DNA of 46,767 nucleotides from Chloroflexota bacterium (GTDB taxonomy: Bacteria > Chloroflexota > UBA11872), in assembly GCA_022820025.1 (NCBI GenBank), contig JAJEGF010000041.1, positions 1 to 46,767 of the forward strand. The letters are read 5' to 3'. Numbering within the stretch: position 1 is the first letter of the stretch; each line of letters starts with the position of its first letter. This document shows positions 14,592-34,600 of the stretch, piece by piece. The notes beneath the pieces were generated by a model. That model did not search any database. It saw nothing but the letters and a program-made list of their open reading frames with translations, and was not told where the DNA came from. The position numbers were made by a program, and so were the translations under genes.

Positions 14592-16088
14592 CTAACTGCC
14601 CAGGAACCCCTCCACCGCCCCTGCAAACTCTTCCGCCTCGGCCTCATAGCTCTCAAATGGATCCGGCATCTCGAAAATCCGTCCCCGAACCCCAATCCCG
14701 TCCCAATCCACCAGGTACGGCACGAACGACCAGCCTCCGAATTCATCCAGTTCCCGCCAGTGCTCGATGTACTGGTAGACCAGGTACAGCTGGTTCTCCC
14801 AGCTCGCCAGCGCGCCCAGATTGTGCTGGATGTCCTTCCAGTCGATGTGCGAATCCGCCCGCGCCTCGGAAAGCGCCCGCACAATCCGCCCCCGCGCGCC
14901 GGCCCTCGTGCCTTCCGGAATCGCCAGCGGATTCACCGGCCCCGAAACCAGCCGGTACATCAGCCCTCGTCGCTGCAGCTCGCTGAACAGGCTCACCGTG
15001 GGGTCCACGTGGTGATACGCGAGGTCCAGCTTCACCAGGTCCGGGTCCGCCCAGCCTTCCGGCGAGTCTTCCGCGTACTCTCGCAGTTCCGCCAGCTTCG
15101 TTACCCAATCCACCTTGCCTATCAGGCGTTCGGGATCTGACTCCAACGCGTCCAGGCACTCGCTCCATTCCGCCAGCGTCCAGTCCGTATCGGCATCGCG
15201 GCCCGCAAACGCCGAAGTCGCGGCCGCCAGGTAGACCCGCTGCACGTCGATCGCCGAAATCGTCCGTCCGTCCACCAGTTCCACCGGCCACGGACCGCCC
15301 GGATTCCGCGAAATCGACTTGATCGACCGTACCGCCTCGTCCAGGTACAGATCGGGGTTCCATCCCGCTGCCAATAGCTGCGCAACCAACGCAGTCGTGC
15401 CCACCTTCAGCGCCGTCGCGAACTGTGATTGATTCGCGTCCCCGACCACCACGTGCAGCCTCCGCAGTCCCGTCCGCTCGCTCAGCGGCTCGTCCCGCAG
15501 GTTGATGATCGGGCGTCCCCCAAACCGCACCCGGTGGCTCACGTCCACCGACACGAACGCCGCCCGCTGCGACATGTGAAACGGGAGCCGCCCGCCCGCT
15601 TCCTTCGGATTCAGGGTCATCCCGGCGCCGGCGTACAGCTGGCGGGTTGTCAAGAATGGCAGTAGGCCAAGCACCATTTCCCGGCTGCGCGGACTCGACA
15701 CGATCGAGTAGTTCTCGTGGTACCCGAACGTATTGCCCAGGTGGTCGGTGTTGTTCTTAATGAAGAACAGCTTCCGGTTCATCTCCTGGCGTTCCACCGT
15801 GTCCAGCAGCACGGCCGAGGCCGCGTTCTCCTGCTCCACGATGTCCCGCAGCGTTCGGCACTCCGCCGAGGCGTACTCGATGTGACCCGAGTCCAGGTAC
15901 AGCCGCGCCCCGTTGAATAGGTGCCCACCATTGCCGGGCTCTTCGTCCCACTCGCGCGGCGCCGGATCGATCAGCCCGAAGCGACGGTCCTGGAACAGGA
16001 TCGACTTCACCAGCCGCGCCGCTTGCCCCGGCGGCAACGCCCCGGCCGACGCGAACTCGATTTCCGTTCCAAAGACGATATCGTCCAT
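14592..16088 (-). CDS. pafA: Pup-protein ligase, PafA-like
   Basis: The 498-residue protein belongs to the PafA/Dop family (glutamine-synthetase-like fold), which attaches the C-terminal glutamate of Pup to target lysines with ATP. The N-terminal metal/ATP strand is FGTEIEFA (Glu9, Glu11). The catalytic Asp66 sits in NGARLYLDSGHIEYASAEC, followed by FIKNNTDHLGNTFGYHENY and PIINLRDEP. It lacks the Dop-type insert after the first strand, and a late MPDPFESYE resembles the PafA C-terminal DPF segment, so it is called the ligase rather than the deamidase. It is about 45 residues longer than M. tuberculosis PafA, mostly through an aromatic-rich insert near residues 425-475. It begins 9 bases after the pup stop. 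Confidence 0.87.
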   Translation of the reverse strand: MDDIVFGTEIEFASAGALPPGQAARLVKSILFQDRRFGLIDPAPREWDEEPGNGGHLFNGARLYLDSGHIEYASAECRTLRDIVEQENAASAVLLDTVERQEMNRKLFFIKNNTDHLGNTFGYHENYSIVSSPRSREMVLGLLPFLTTRQLYAGAGMTLNPKEAGGRLPFHMSQRAAFVSVDVSHRVRFGGRPIINLRDEPLSERTGLRRLHVVVGDANQSQFATALKVGTTALVAQLLAAGWNPDLYLDEAVRSIKSISRNPGGPWPVELVDGRTISAIDVQRVYLAAATSAFAGRDADTDWTLAEWSECLDALESDPERLIGKVDWVTKLAELREYAEDSPEGWADPDLVKLDLAYHHVDPTVSLFSELQRRGLMYRLVSGPVNPLAIPEGTRAGARGRIVRALSEARADSHIDWKDIQHNLGALASWENQLYLVYQYIEHWRELDEFGGWSFVPYLVDWDGIGVRGRIFEMPDPFESYEAEAEEFAGAVEGFLGS

Positions 16089-16097
16089 GCGTTCTGG

Positions 16098-16274
16098 CTA
16101 TTGCCCGCCGGGTTGAGGGGTCGGGTCGGGAATCTCCCGGATAATCCGCCGCCTGCGCTCCCGCAGGTCCTCTTCTTTCTCCGGCGCCGCCGGCTCCGTC
16201 GGCGCTTCCGCCGGCTTGGTCGGCGCCTCCGTCTCGCCGCGCCACGCCGGTGCTACGCGTATCAATCGCTTCAC
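16098..16274 (-). CDS. pup: Pup-like ubiquitin-like modifier, 58 residues, C-terminal Gly-Gly-Gln
   Basis: This is a small GTG-start gene between dop and pafA. Its ribosome site GGGAGG overlaps the end of dop and is 8 bases from the GTG. The protein ends PQPGGQ, the Pup hallmark: the terminal Gln must be deamidated to Glu by Dop before PafA can ligate it. Residues 1-13 are basic, 14-32 are Pro/Ala/Glu/Thr-rich and probably disordered, and 33-48 are a charged helix candidate (EKEEDLRERRRRIIRE). Residues 49-58 are Pro-rich. Actinobacterial Pup is about 64 residues, acidic, with a long coiled-coil segment just before GGQ; this one is basic there and interrupted by prolines. It more nearly recalls the Pro-rich UBact-type modifiers of other Gram-negative phyla. 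Identification rests on position, size and C-terminus, not overall similarity. Confidence 0.82.
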   Translation of the reverse strand: MKRLIRVAPAWRGETEAPTKPAEAPTEPAAPEKEEDLRERRRRIIREIPDPTPQPGGQ

Positions 16275-16279
16275 GTCAA

Positions 16280-17782
16280 TTACCTCCCGTCCGCGTCCAG
16301 CGCGGTCAGCAATCCCTCCAGTGTCTCCGCCTCCGCAACCATCCGTCCCAGCCGATCGACCTCTGGACCAGCAACGTCGTCGAATCGCAGCGTCACGTCA
16401 TATCCATTTCGACGAAACACTACCCGGTCCCACTCCACCGCACTGATGTCCTTGCCAAACCGCCGCAGCACGTCTCCGCGCACGGCAGCCCGCGTGCCCG
16501 TCGGCGGCGTCGTCATCGCCCGCTCGATATCCGCATTGTTCACGATCCGCCGCAGTCGTCCTTCGTCCACCAGCATGTCGTAGACGCACCAGTCCGGATC
16601 CAGCACGTGGTACCCCAGGTCGACCCGCCGCGCATCCTCGTCACTCCACTCAGGCCCAAAGTCTTCCCGCATCTCGGCGATCAGGCGCTCCTTTGCCACC
16701 CAGTCCACCCGGTCGGCCGCCCGCGACCTGTCCCGCCCCAGGTCGTCCAGCACCGCCGCCCACTCATCGAGCACCCACGTTGTCTCCTCGTCTCGCCCCC
16801 GGAAGCGCTGCGCCGCCTCGCAATACCACCCCTGCACATCCAGCGCCGAAACCGGCCCGCCACGCTCCAGCTCCACGACGCCGCCAAAGCCCAGGTCGTG
16901 CGACACCCGTCGCACGGCCCGCACCGGGTCGGTCGGTCGGTCTGACGGTCGCCATCCCTCCATTGCCAGGTCTAACACCAGGGCGGTGGTGCCCACCTTC
17001 ATCGCTGTCGCCCATTCGCTGCGGTTTGCGTCGCCGGCAATCACGTGCAGCCGCCGGTACTTCCCGGCGTCGGCGTGCGGCTCGTCCCGGGTATTGAAGA
17101 TCGGCCGTCGCGCCGTGGTGTTGATCCCCGTCACTTCCTCGAAGAAATCCGCCCGCTGCGACATCTGCAACTGCAACGGGTCGCCCCCCTCGATCCCAAC
17201 CCGCCCGGCTCCCGCAAACGCCTGCCGCGTCGCCAGGAACGGCACCGTCACCCGGATCAGGTCGTCCGTCGGAATCCTCCGCGACGTCAGGTAATTCTCG
17301 TGGCAGCCGTAGCTGCGGCCGTGATAGTCCGTGTTGTTCTTCAGCAAACGGATCTGCCCATAACCCAGCTTCGCGTTCCGCGCCGTCTCCGCCGCGAACA
17401 TCACCCGCTCGCCCGCCTTGTCCTGGGCCACCAGGTCCTTGAGCGTCAGGCAGACGTCCGTGCAGTACTCGGGATGGTTGTGGTCGTTGTACAGCCGTGC
17501 CCCGTTGCGCAGCACGGTATTCGAGAGCAGCTCGTCGCGCGACATCCGCCGGCTGCGGTCCGTCGACCCCGTCAGATCCCGCGGGTCCCGCTCCAGCCGA
17601 TTCGCTCGTCCGCCCCGCAGGTCACGGTACGGGTCCTCGCCCACGTAGTCCCAGCCGCGAAACGCGCCCTCAACCGGCGCCGCCTGGATCAGTCGGGCCG
17701 CCTCGTAGGCGAAATCAGGTTCGCCCGCAAAGCCCTCGCAGTTGAGCCCGTATTCGGTCTCGATGCCTGCGGGACGGTTCAT
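16280..17782 (-). CDS. dop: Pup deamidase/depupylase, Dop-like
   Basis: The 500-residue protein is the second PafA/Dop-family enzyme. Dop converts the C-terminal Gln of Pup to Glu and also removes Pup from substrates. The metal/ATP strand is GIETEYG (Glu8, Glu10). A Dop-type insert follows (FRGWDYVGEDPYRDLRG, about 41-57), resembling the WDYE-SPLRDARG segment of mycobacterial Dop. The catalytic Asp100 lies in LRNGARLYNDHNHPEY, with LLKNNTDYHGRSYGCHENYL and FNTRDEPHADAGKYRRLHV afterwards. The end VEWDRVVFRRNG also matches Dop. Its length is close to the usual 500-505. The stop codon is 5 bases before the pup GTG. The gene follows the ornithine-cyclodeaminase homologue by 46 bases, so these four genes may form one operon. 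Confidence 0.9.
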   Translation of the reverse strand: MNRPAGIETEYGLNCEGFAGEPDFAYEAARLIQAAPVEGAFRGWDYVGEDPYRDLRGGRANRLERDPRDLTGSTDRSRRMSRDELLSNTVLRNGARLYNDHNHPEYCTDVCLTLKDLVAQDKAGERVMFAAETARNAKLGYGQIRLLKNNTDYHGRSYGCHENYLTSRRIPTDDLIRVTVPFLATRQAFAGAGRVGIEGGDPLQLQMSQRADFFEEVTGINTTARRPIFNTRDEPHADAGKYRRLHVIAGDANRSEWATAMKVGTTALVLDLAMEGWRPSDRPTDPVRAVRRVSHDLGFGGVVELERGGPVSALDVQGWYCEAAQRFRGRDEETTWVLDEWAAVLDDLGRDRSRAADRVDWVAKERLIAEMREDFGPEWSDEDARRVDLGYHVLDPDWCVYDMLVDEGRLRRIVNNADIERAMTTPPTGTRAAVRGDVLRRFGKDISAVEWDRVVFRRNGYDVTLRFDDVAGPEVDRLGRMVAEAETLEGLLTALDADGR

Positions 17783-18927: not shown

Positions 18928-21093
18928 ATGACCGACAGAGAGGCGATTCAGCGCAGCCAGCAAGGCGACCGTCTGGCCTTCCGTCACTTGGTCGACCGCT
19001 ACCAGAACGACCTCTATGGCAGCGCCACCCTGATAACCGGAAGCCATACGCTGGCGGCGCAACAGGTCCGCGACGTTTTCCGCCTGACCTGGCGAGGCAT
19101 CCACGGCTTCAGCAGTGACTGCCCGGCCAAGCCCTGGCTCATGCGAATCCTGGTCCGCCAGAACGCTTCCCGGCGACGCCTGACGTCGTCTCCAACGGTC
19201 GCCTCGAGCAGTCGCTCGCAAACGCGGAAACACCCGGAATCCAACCGGCCCGGCCCCTCAGATTGCGAGCGCGGGACAGTTCGACAGGCATTCGCGGGAC
19301 TCGACCCAGACCACCGCGACGTTCTGATCCTGCGCTACTTCACCGACTTGCAGGGAACCCAGTTGGCACTGGCGCTGGGCGCCGACGAGCACACGGTCGA
19401 CTCGAGCCTGCAAGAGGCACTCGGCCAGTTTCGCGAACGACTCCACGATCTCGGCGCTATAGAAACGTCCGACCAGGGTGCGCCGTGCTCCGATCAGAGA
19501 CTTGCCGACTCGCTGCGGACCTACTTCCGCCAGGCCGCTTTCGCCGTGCACTGCCCTACGGACCTCGGGCCCTTCATCGAAAACCGTCTCCACGCCTCTT
19601 CCCGCCTCGCCGGGATTCGGCGCAAGCTGCTAGCCGCCGCCGGTCGGCTGTGGACCCCGGTGATGGCCAGTGGCGGAGCGGTCGCGGCCGCCTCGATCCT
19701 GGTCGGCGCGGCAACCGTCGCCTGCGGCGAGTCCGAGACTGTTGATCGGACGGCGGTCAGGGAGACGCCGGCCGCCGCGGCCGCCCCAGCGCCCGCCTCC
19801 ACGGCAGCGGCGATTCCCGCCCCGGCGTCCGCCGCCGCTTCCGTCGCGATGGCCGACCCACCTGCCGCCCTGCCCCCTGCGCCCTCCCTAGCGGCCGTCG
19901 CGACCGCAGCCCCGGCTCCCGCCATGGAGACGGTGGTCAAAGAGGTGCCGGCGGAGAGGGCTGTCGTCCGGGAAGCCCCGGTCGAGAAGGTCGTAGCCAG
20001 GGAGGTTGTCGTCGAAAAGCTCGTGACGGCCCCACCGGCCGCTGCCATCGAGGCTTCAGCCCCGCGGCGCGAGTATCAGCCTGTCGACCTCACCGCCGGC
20101 GAAGTCAACGACAACGAGAAGTGGACCGAGTACCTGAGCTACCGCGACAACTATCGCGGCCCGCCGGTCCACGACGTTGACGTATCCGAGCGATTCACTA
20201 TCACCGTGCTCGACTCACTCGAGCGACCGGTGCCAAACGCCGCGGTCTCCGTTACGGCCGGGGAATCCCTCATCTTTGAGGGCCGCACGTACGCCACCGG
20301 CCAGACCCTTTTCTTCCCGCGGGCCTTTCCCCTGGCATCCAGTGCCCGGACATACCGCCTTGACGTGGAGAAAGACGGCGTTCGTCAGTCGCTCACGGCG
20401 GAACGCGACGGAGAATCTGAGTGGTTCATCCAGTTAGACGTCGACCAACCCTACGGCGACCGCGTTCCCCTCGACCTACTGTTCCTCTTGGACGCCACCG
20501 GCAGCATGGCCGACGAGATTGCCCAGATCAAAGCCACGCTCCTCTCGGTCTCGCAGCGCATCGGCGCCTTGCCCTCGCGACCCGACCTCCGCGTTGGGAT
20601 GGTCACCTACCGCGATCGCGGCGACGACTTCGTCACCCGGCTCTACGACTTTGAGGCCAACGTCCCGACCTTCTTGAACACAATTCAGGATGTGGTCGCC
20701 GACGGCGGCGACGACTATCCCGAGTCGCTAAACGAAGCCCTGCACGTTGCCGTCCACACGCCGGCCTGGCGCCTCGACAACGCAATACGGCTCGTCATCC
20801 TCGTGGCCGACGCGCCGCCCCACCTGGACTACCCCCAGGACTACGACTATGCCTCCGAGATGATGGAGGCCCACCGCCGGGGCATGAAGATCTTCAGCAT
20901 CGCCTCCAGCGGCCTGGATGAGCAGGGCGAATACATCTTCCGCCAGCTGGCCCAGCACACCATGGGACGGTTCTTGTTCCTTCTCTATGGCGGCGAGACC
21001 TCCCACAGCGTCTCCGACTACTCGATCGAGCAACTCGACGATCTCGTCGTCCGCCTCGTCGAGGAGGAGCTCGACCACCTCAAGCCGCGCTAA
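18928..21093 (+). CDS. ECF sigma factor fused to a hydrophobic segment and a vWA domain
   Basis: This 721-residue chimera starts as an ECF sigma factor: region 2 at about 3-85 (AFRHLVDRYQNDLY, VFRLTWRGIHGF, PWLMRILVRQNA) and region 4 at about 117-172 (FAGLDPDHRDVLILRYF, GADEHTVDSSLQEAL). A single hydrophobic segment follows at about 245-266. It ends in GAATVACGES, which looks like a lipobox. Next comes an Ala/Pro-rich stretch (281-332) and Val/Glu repeats (335-366, such as ETVVKEVPAERAVVREAP). A beta-rich region (about 415-505) precedes a von Willebrand A domain (512-715) with an intact MIDAS: Asp522, Thr524 and Ser526 in LDATGSMADE, plus DGGDDYPES. The ATG has AGGAG upstream. The topology implies a cytoplasmic sigma tethered to an outside ligand-binding domain. 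It is read through one frame with no break. Confidence 0.85.
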   Translation: MTDREAIQRSQQGDRLAFRHLVDRYQNDLYGSATLITGSHTLAAQQVRDVFRLTWRGIHGFSSDCPAKPWLMRILVRQNASRRRLTSSPTVASSSRSQTRKHPESNRPGPSDCERGTVRQAFAGLDPDHRDVLILRYFTDLQGTQLALALGADEHTVDSSLQEALGQFRERLHDLGAIETSDQGAPCSDQRLADSLRTYFRQAAFAVHCPTDLGPFIENRLHASSRLAGIRRKLLAAAGRLWTPVMASGGAVAAASILVGAATVACGESETVDRTAVRETPAAAAAPAPASTAAAIPAPASAAASVAMADPPAALPPAPSLAAVATAAPAPAMETVVKEVPAERAVVREAPVEKVVAREVVVEKLVTAPPAAAIEASAPRREYQPVDLTAGEVNDNEKWTEYLSYRDNYRGPPVHDVDVSERFTITVLDSLERPVPNAAVSVTAGESLIFEGRTYATGQTLFFPRAFPLASSARTYRLDVEKDGVRQSLTAERDGESEWFIQLDVDQPYGDRVPLDLLFLLDATGSMADEIAQIKATLLSVSQRIGALPSRPDLRVGMVTYRDRGDDFVTRLYDFEANVPTFLNTIQDVVADGGDDYPESLNEALHVAVHTPAWRLDNAIRLVILVADAPPHLDYPQDYDYASEMMEAHRRGMKIFSIASSGLDEQGEYIFRQLAQHTMGRFLFLLYGGETSHSVSDYSIEQLDDLVVRLVEEELDHLKPR

Positions 21094-33181: not shown

Positions 33182-34600
33182 ATGTTTAGGAGTTTCAGGC
33201 TTGTATCCGTGCTACTGATCGCTGTACTTGCCATCGTCCTGGTGGCATGCGGCGAGAGCGACGGAACTCCAAGCGAGGTCGTAAGGACTGTCGAAGTCGA
33301 GAGAGCCGTCACCGTCGAAGTCGAGCGGGTAGTCACCGTTGAAGTCGAACGGCCGGTCGTCCAGGAAGTCGTCCGCGTTGTCGAGGTCGAAAAACCGGTC
33401 GAGGTCGTCCGGCAGGTGACCGTTGAGGTCATGCAGGAAGCGCCGACGCTTCCACCGTTAATCATCGGGCACCTCAACGCGCTTACCGGTTCGCTGTCCT
33501 ACTTCGGCGTTTCCCATGGCAACGCCGCTGATCTCGCCGCCAGCCACGTCAACCGCGCTGGAGGGATTCAGGGCGGATCCGTCGTCATCATCAGCCGCGA
33601 CACCGGCGTCAACCCCGTGCAGGGCGTCGACGCAGCCCGTGCGCTGGTGGACGTTGAGAGCGTGGCGGCCATCGTCGGTGCATTGGCCAGCGGTGTCACC
33701 ATCCCGGTAGCCACCTCCGTAACAGCTCCAAACCAGACGCTTCAGATATCGCACTCGTCCACGGCGCCCAGCATCACCGCGCTTGAAGACGACGATTTCC
33801 TCTTCCGAACAACCGTTTCGGACGCGGCGCAGGGCGTCGTCCTCGGCCGCTTGGCCTGGGAACAGGGCTACAAGAGCGCCGGAATCATGTACATCAACAA
33901 CGCCTATGGGCAGGGCCTGGCTGAACGATTCAGCCAGACCTTTACTGAACTGGGCGGAACGGTCACGGCTTCGGTACCGCACGAAGACAGCCAGCCGACG
34001 TTTACGTCTGAGCTGGAGAAGGCCACTGACGGCGACCCGGACGTCCTGGTCACCGTTAGCTATCCGGGACAGGCGGAGATCTACCTTCGCGAAGCCCTGG
34101 AAGGCGACTACGCGGATACGTTCCTCTTCGTGGATGGCGTGAAGTCCGATGACATGGTGCAGGCCATCGGCGGCGGCAAGCTTGACGGAACCCTGGGCAC
34201 CGCGCCCGGAGCCCCCGACAGCCCCGATCGCCAGGCCTTCTACAACGCCTACACCCTGACCTTTGGCGTGGAAGCGCCCCAGGAGCCATACCTGGCCGAG
34301 ACCTACGACGCGGTCGTGCTGATCGCGCTCGCGGCCGCCAGAGCCGGTACTACGACCGACTCCGTGGCCATCCGCGACGCGCTTCGCGACGTAGCCAACC
34401 CTCCGGGCGAAGTTGTCGGTCCTGGCGCGGCCGGCATCCAGAAGGCCCTGGCCCTGATCGCCAGCGGTCAGGACATCAACTACGAGGGCGCCTCTGGCCC
34501 CGTGGACTTCGACGAGAACGGCGACGTGTCCGGACCAATCGAGGTCTGGACGGTCGAAGGCGACGCCGTGACGTCCACCGGCAGGTTCGAACTACCCTAG
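33182..34600 (+). CDS. Branched-chain-amino-acid-type ABC substrate-binding lipoprotein (LivK/Peripla_BP_6-like)
   Basis: This lipoprotein of 472 residues has signal and lipobox VLVACGES (Cys23), then about 45 residues of repeated Val/Glu units (VEVERAVTVEVERVVTVEVE), then a type I periplasmic-binding fold of the LivJ/LivK type: IIGHLNALTGSLSYFG, AADLAASHVNRAGGIQGGSV, NPVQGVDAARALVDVESVAAIVG, YINNAYGQGLAERF. The substrate may be amino acids, urea, amides or aromatic acids. The ATG is preceded by GGGGAG. A complete permease/ATPase set (livM, livH, livF, livG) lies on the opposite strand converging on this gene and is very likely its partner. A strong hairpin separates them. Confidence 0.9.
   Translation: MFRSFRLVSVLLIAVLAIVLVACGESDGTPSEVVRTVEVERAVTVEVERVVTVEVERPVVQEVVRVVEVEKPVEVVRQVTVEVMQEAPTLPPLIIGHLNALTGSLSYFGVSHGNAADLAASHVNRAGGIQGGSVVIISRDTGVNPVQGVDAARALVDVESVAAIVGALASGVTIPVATSVTAPNQTLQISHSSTAPSITALEDDDFLFRTTVSDAAQGVVLGRLAWEQGYKSAGIMYINNAYGQGLAERFSQTFTELGGTVTASVPHEDSQPTFTSELEKATDGDPDVLVTVSYPGQAEIYLREALEGDYADTFLFVDGVKSDDMVQAIGGGKLDGTLGTAPGAPDSPDRQAFYNAYTLTFGVEAPQEPYLAETYDAVVLIALAAARAGTTTDSVAIRDALRDVANPPGEVVGPGAAGIQKALALIASGQDINYEGASGPVDFDENGDVSGPIEVWTVEGDAVTSTGRFELP

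Follow-up and report, generated by a model that had tools for sequence, protein, structure and literature searches.

Pup, the modifier of Actinobacteria, ends in Gly-Gly-Gln; it is deamidated by Dop, ligated by PafA and accompanied by Mpa/ARC and the 20S proteasome. The other catalogued system, UBact, comes with ARC, Dop, PrcBA and PafA, and both modifiers are regarded chiefly as proteasome tags. The window analysed here, that is, the whole 46,767-nucleotide stretch of contig JAJEGF010000041.1 from a Chloroflexota bacterium, carries a dop-like and a pafA-like gene that flank a frame of 58 codons. The three genes very probably form a dop-pup-pafA operon in which the small frame specifies the protein modifier. 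This modifier would represent a third Pup-like lineage, whose sequence sets it apart from Pup and UBact and which has so far been found in one class of Chloroflexota.

According to a 2021 review (PMC8223512), 20S genes are missing from some Actinobacteria; it also states that ARC of Corynebacterium glutamicum has been proposed to unfold pupylated ferritin and thereby release iron, and that phenotypes suggesting proteasome-independent roles of pupylation have been reported. A 2024 review still describes pupylation as restricted to Actinobacteria (PMC10991733). No report of Pup, Dop or PafA in Chloroflexota was found in the open-access papers examined. Papers that contain both words use them apart in the passages concerned (PMC3056875, PMC10991733, PMC10693628, PMC7448276 and PMC11354881), and the examined part of PMC7203096 holds none of the terms. 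A term search in a genome paper on sponge Chloroflexi (PMC6306507) returned none of ubiquitin, proteasome and pupyl-, and the word Chloroflexi is absent from the text of Hecht et al.

A conserved small gene between dop and pafA homologues

On the minus strand of the window the order is dop-like gene, small frame, pafA-like gene, with spacings of 5 and 9 bases (Table 1). The original prediction had described a 58-residue frame with a GTG start, a ribosome-site-like stretch, these short gaps and a Gly-Gly-Gln end, all of which was confirmed by re-reading. The GTG start of the window copy is replaced by ATG in close relatives such as L003; in L003 the GGGAGGT motif likewise lies 5' of the small gene.

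Four hundred Chloroflexota genomes were searched with the Pfam family PF03136 and with a profile of the peptide (A1). PF03136 enzymes are present in 39 genomes, all within the genus, family, order or class of the window's genome and spanning five families; two members of the class in the survey listing, G216 and G292 (76% complete), lack them. Profile A1 matches 38 of the 39, and the single miss, G248, has an assembly gap of 100 N exactly at the small-frame site. A profile match in G115 (E 6.6e-4; positions 14-50) contains two internal stops and was dropped as chance. The peptide sequence could be read in 37 of the 38 profile-positive genomes and terminates in GG(Q/E) in all 37; in the other one, G061, it is known from the profile match alone, which extends to the last model position. 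A scan of genome contigs placed a small frame 5' of pafA in 23 of 25 loci, the remaining two being the N-gap locus of G248 (L011) and a UBact locus (L026). The frame thus proved to be the conserved partner of dop and pafA, as had been proposed: the N gap is the sole miss among the 39 genomes, and the end is either GGQ or GGE in every copy read.

The conservation has the pattern of a coding sequence. Over the last 15 codons, 37 distinct sequences show 3, 1 and 15 variable sites at codon positions 1, 2 and 3, respectively; the third position of every codon varies and the encoded pattern, I(I/V)RE(I/V/M)P(D/G)PTPQPGG(Q/E), is nearly invariant. The ratio of nonsynonymous to synonymous changes (pN/pS), taken over pairs that are not independent of one another, is 0.049 when pooled for 83 close pairs and the last 44 codons (the two shifted frames give 4.3 and 7.9), and 0.22 for all 666 pairs and the last 24 codons, compared with more than 2.5 in both shifted frames. 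Alignment of related loci, from which the original prediction expected a kept GG(Q/E) end and a ratio below 1, therefore yielded both, and indicates strong purifying selection on this end. In addition, when the 191-base gap was shuffled 20,000 times by single bases, an open reading frame (ORF) of about 50 or more codons with a GG(Q/E) end appeared a single time. A chance ORF is ruled out by the copies in relatives, the codon-position pattern and the shuffle test; the small frame is a real gene.

A real gene at this position might still be a leader peptide that merely couples translation of dop to that of pafA and whose GGQ end is incidental, a role that the tight spacing in the window would suit. 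However, conservation acts at the protein level and leaves third codon positions free, and GG(Q/E) is retained in every copy read. Moreover, in the three loci of family f3 that were measured, pafA is separated from the small gene by 311-549 bases, and the C-terminal end is still kept. The codon-position pattern and the f3 spacing led us to reject the leader peptide, which we regard as highly improbable.

Relation of the peptide and its enzymes to Pup and UBact

The peptide is built from an N-terminal half, a short predicted helix and a proline-rich tail, in that order. Pro, Thr and Glu abound in the N-half, which is EAPTKPAETPTE-like and in the window copy contains a two-copy repeat of seven residues. 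The helix of the window's genus, DLRERRRRIIRE, has a net charge of +1 over 14 residues, whereas the other genera and families sampled have DLDEEIKRIIRE-like helices with net charges of -2 to -4; the segments compared from one Pup and one UBact carry -7 and +1. The original prediction had pointed to an Arg-rich helix. Since the other genera and families read carry net acidic helices, it is a local, genus-level trait and was discarded as a hallmark of the lineage. The most frequent end is IIREIPDPTPQPGG(Q/E), with the variants IVRE, REV, REM and PGP; GGQ terminates the copies of the window's genus as well as those of L019 and L063, and GGE the remaining copies read.

The peptide resembles Pup as a small modifier gene beside dop, with a terminal GGQ or GGE in all copies read and with adjacent genes for enzymes of the matching Dop and PafA folds (pafA being set off in the f3 loci). 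The acidic helix of most Chloroflexota families also recalls the Pup segment LDEIDEVLEE. In contrast, the Chloroflexota tail PDPTPQPGG(Q/E) differs from the EEFVRSYVQKGGE of Pup, and no match to the Pup models PF05639 and TIGR03687 or the UBact models PF20513 and NF033388 was obtained for any of 18 members at E values up to 10, in searches where HMMER filters hide most weak matches. As controls, a Nonomuraea Pup matched PF05639 (1.5e-30) and TIGR03687 (8.9e-21), and two true UBacts matched NF033388 and PF20513 at 1e-21 to 1e-23. Membership in either family was rejected on these grounds, and the proposal that the peptide is distinct from both types is borne out. Profile-profile comparison by hhalign gave a probability of 0.7% for the peptide against UBact and no signal for the peptide against Pup; this method is powerless either way, because the control pair of UBact and Pup likewise gave no signal (1.2%).

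Both flanking genes match the Pfam family Pup_ligase (PF03136), the dop-like gene with E 1.6e-144 and the pafA-like gene with E 3.6e-103. The dop-like product scores 412 bits with the Dop model TIGR03688 (cut-off 492) and 334 with the PafA model TIGR03686; the pafA-like product scores 282 bits with TIGR03686 (cut-off 551) and 253 with TIGR03688. All these values are below the curated cut-offs, and both proteins are therefore divergent family members. Among PDB structures, the dop-like protein is closest to Dop (5lrt/4b0r, E ~1e-103) and the pafA-like protein matches PafA and Dop about equally (E ~1e-57). A WDY..EDPYRDLRG stretch of the dop-like protein aligns to the Dop-loop region of Acidothermus Dop and is absent from the pafA-like protein. 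The Dop-loop residues and the motif NDHxHPEY are invariant in all 16 rows of the Dop alignment (A2), and the Asp of YxD and the motif HxEY in all 13 rows of the PafA alignment (A3). The dop-like protein thus combines the PF03136 fold with a Dop-loop segment and the conserved catalytic Asp region, and the pafA-like protein combines the same fold with a conserved Asp, no Dop-loop and a position on the PafA side of the tree.

The tree was computed from 46 chosen Dop and PafA rows (22 Chloroflexota, 20 from UBact-type genomes, possibly Armatimonadota, and 4 actinobacterial, two of the last from a record filed as phage), leaving out fragments of at most 440 residues and near-copies; a UBact peptide could be read in 9 of its 10 UBact-type genomes, the exception being L119. 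Each enzyme of each group forms a separate clade with support of 100/97 or better, and the Chloroflexota Dop and PafA clades (chlx_dop and chlx_paf) reach 100/100 each. With three groups sampled, PafA of Chloroflexota and UBact-type PafA come out as sister clades (99/95), the former lying outside the latter. Support is low for the placement of the Chloroflexota Dop clade (56/32) and is 78/97 for the split between Dop and PafA. The original prediction had tentatively put the lineage between Pup and UBact. This is supported in part, by the sister position of PafA; the Dop clade is too weakly placed to add to it, and profile comparison links none of the three peptides.

The sister ligase clades also raise the alternative that the peptide is a highly divergent UBact, descended from UBact with a rebuilt C-terminus and later loss of the proteasome. 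In both systems the peptide has a Pro-rich N-half, a helix-like stretch before the tail and a G(Q/E) end, and the small gene lies directly 3' of dop. On the other hand, the 18 members fail the UBact models that true UBacts match, and the hhalign value is low, albeit from a comparison lacking power here. The UBact end, RRMKRVDPDxARRYRQRSG(E/Q), would have to be swapped for the Chloroflexota tail, exchanging SG(E/Q) for GG(Q/E). Profile A1 matches none of 101 genomes of the UBact-type phylum, as opposed to 38 Chloroflexota genomes, and the Chloroflexota dop-pup-pafA locus is compact, without adjoining prcBA and ARC. Descent from UBact, a question of ancestry that is partly compatible with a third lineage, is in our judgement unlikely.

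Proposed chemistry and downstream components

We infer a modifier function for the small gene, and the enzyme families together with the kept GG(Q/E) end argue for Pup-like tagging and untagging. By analogy with Pup biochemistry, Dop would deamidate the terminal Gln to Glu in GGQ species, a step that GGE species would skip; PafA would then activate the terminal Glu with ATP and join it to a lysine of the target protein, and Dop would take the tag off again. The IIREIPDPTPQP segment may serve as the enzyme grip, a short helix followed by a proline-rich stretch that guides GG(Q/E) into the active site, and the Pro/Thr-rich N-half may dock on a putative reader.

AlphaFold single-chain models of read-through proteins were examined for Pup-PafA of L018 and Dop-Pup of L014. 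Structures of Dop and of PafA fit the PafA part of the L018 model about equally well (7oxy, 5.3e-28; 4bjr, 1.1e-27). Its peptide helix (54-64) has predicted local distance difference test (pLDDT) values of 80/72 within surroundings of about 30, and is weakly compatible with docking on PafA. The Dop part of the L014 model is closest to Dop structures (7oxv, E 2.1e-35), with pLDDT values of only 45-50 for the adjacent peptide helix. Docking of the tail into the PafA or Dop active site, as originally envisaged, was not seen in these models; the GGE of L018 is not placed (pLDDT 27).

The 20S proteasome family PF00227 was not found in the window's own genome (93.6% complete) nor in 16 of 18 locus-bearing Chloroflexota genomes, including the single-contig chromosome L012, whereas the UBact-type control genome G018 gave a match in every run. 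PF16450, which models the OB domain found in proteasomal ATPases, had no match in the 19 genomes of a first set and matched all UBact-type genomes tried as controls (G018; then G018, G440 and G485). Matches to the Mpa/ARC model TIGR03689 in the window's own genome fell solely on FtsH-like frames and were confined to the AAA core, beginning no earlier than model position 169. Another 12 Chloroflexota genomes likewise matched the AAA core alone, from position 169 onward; scores did not exceed 153 bits except in G341, where the two AAA stretches of a 721-residue frame reached 221 and 197 bits. The matches of G440 and G423 start at positions 22 and 15 (445 and 230 bits). The absence of Mpa/ARC is well supported, and so is that of the 20S proteasome save for G001, G002/G224 and G313. 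That Mpa/ARC and the 20S proteasome, which accompany Pup, are not found in most of the genomes tested is unexpected and goes beyond the original prediction; they are not strictly defining for Pup, because some Actinobacteria lack 20S. A known parallel is C. glutamicum (Pup, PafA, Dop, ARC), in which pupylation is retained without 20S subunits; it differs in keeping ARC (PMC8223512), which in the Chloroflexota class was not found either.

Modifier, enzymes and missing downstream parts are jointly unlike either catalogued system, and Pup chemistry is expected. With neither the proteasome nor its cognate unfoldase found, the likeliest roles of the tag are reversible regulation or delivery of its targets to another AAA protease. 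We lean slightly towards the first, namely a class-wide, separately diverged third Pup-like system of tag, ligase and remover that has neither proteasome nor unfoldase and whose tag would be a reversible regulatory mark rather than a signal for proteasomal degradation.

Several observations weigh against the interpretation as a third Pup-like modifier lineage as a whole. Scores of the two enzymes stay under the cut-offs that NCBIfam has curated for Dop and PafA, profile comparison links the peptide to neither Pup nor UBact (failing equally for UBact against Pup), and the read-through models lend weak support, with GGE unplaced and a Dop-side helix of low pLDDT. The absence of the proteasome is drawn mostly from draft genomes and has exceptions, each of them weak or doubtful. 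Two of the 18 genomes, G001 and G002, contain a 247-residue Ntn-type ORF that matches PF00227 at 38-41 bits, above the family cut-off. In a second set of 21 Chloroflexota genomes, some of them shared with the first, PF00227 matched two, by one 247-residue ORF (G224, whose coordinates equal those of G002, so that the two are probably one genome) and by one fragment in G313. The latter is a proteasome-alpha-like fragment at a contig end (G313:C256, L125/L129) in a bin with 6% contamination; it has an actinobacterial look by eye, and PF03136 of G313 is on another contig only. PF16450 matched one genome of the second set, G104, where a score of 22.2 (23.1 when neighbours are included) barely passes the cut-off; the ORF concerned is DUF58-like by eye and doubtful as ARC.

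The 247-residue ORF of the proteasome superfamily stands alone beside an ORF of 165-167 residues in two close relatives (L032:1243-1983 and L033:1492-2232) and was not found in the window's genome.

The tag could instead still be degradative and feed a non-20S protease such as FtsH, Clp, Lon or a Cdc48-like AAA protein. Two FtsH-like AAA proteins were recognised by eye in the window's own genome, the AAA core of TIGR03689 is matched in 12 of 12 other Chloroflexota genomes tested, and the Pro-rich N-half could provide a start site for unfolding. Against this, no protease or AAA gene shared across families was seen beside dop-pup-pafA in ten loci with partial flanks (crude clustering of ORFs, by eye; Clp and Lon not searched), and we hold a degradative role to be doubtful. 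Among the same partial flanks, no neighbour of at least 90 residues, as called by a crude caller, was clearly common to the families except dop and pafA. Within family f4, several loci share a frame next to dop that by eye resembles mandelate racemase, and some clusters of shared neighbours were discarded as artefacts of overlapping antisense frames.

If the tag is indeed a reversible mark, a bacterial ubiquitin-like regulatory modification would operate across one class of Chloroflexota. A lineage that keeps tag, ligase and remover across five families with little or no sign of a proteasome or Mpa/ARC would offer a natural test of pupylation without degradation, and could inform whether conjugation preceded or followed the link to the proteasome. 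A third set of modifier and enzymes with a different tail would also help to explain modifier recognition by PafA and Dop and is a possible tool for orthogonal labelling.

Features of the window and further PF03136 loci

The features of the locus are collected in Table 1. No promoter was found in a promoter scan, and 4 terminator-like sites were observed compared with 2.1 in shuffles. Elsewhere in the window, a 24-base unit is repeated in tandem 2.5 times at 33290-33348, and a 721-residue frame at 18928-21093 combines a C-terminal von Willebrand A domain with weak, sub-cut-off matches to sigma-70 regions 2 and 4.

Table 1. Features of the dop-pup-pafA locus, in window coordinates.
Feature	Position	Strand	Remarks
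dop-like gene, 500 aa	16280..17782	-	Pup deamidase/depupylase homologue with Dop-loop segment; PF03136, TIGR03688, PDB, tree
GGGAGGT, ribosome-site-like	16282..16288	-	8-14 bases 5' of the small-gene GTG, overlaps the dop end; read from the sequence
small modifier gene, 58 aa, Chloroflexota Pup-like (probable)	16098..16274	-	GTG start, TAG stop, ends PQPGGQ
two-copy 21-base repeat in the small gene (EAPTKPA / EAPTEPA)	16187..16231	-	Tandem Repeats Finder
pafA-like gene, 498 aa	14592..16088	-	modifier ligase homologue without Dop-loop segment; PF03136, TIGR03686, PDB, tree

One Chloroflexota genome contains a third, divergent PafA-like gene, a frame of 486 residues (L130:4656-6113; G341:C77), with no GG(Q/E) frame of the expected type seen adjoining it. 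In the UBact-type phylum, a second kind of PF03136 locus was noticed in L131 (2174-5500), L132 (51-5201) and also L133. In L131 and L132 an ARC-like AAA ATPase, which has an OB domain and scores 221-242 bits with TIGR03689, is accompanied by a PafA-like gene, a small frame and a second PafA/Dop-like gene; the last has weak TPR matches in L132. The small frame, of 64-65 residues with a GGE or GGQ end, is without a match in Pfam and NCBIfam. In L133 a frame ends in DGGQ, and L134 and L135 have PF03136 genes with no clear small frame. This second kind of locus is possibly a further Pup-like system.

Two database records that carry Pup loci appear to be misfiled. L113 (MT835496.1), filed as an unverified bacteriophage, contains Dop, PafA, a canonical-looking Pup and a frame that by eye resembles Mpa/ARC, and looks like actinobacterial chromosome rather than phage. 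The 11.85-Mb Nonomuraea record NZ_LT559118.1 (L112/L123), which contains dop, pup and pafA, is filed as a plasmid but evidently represents a chromosome.

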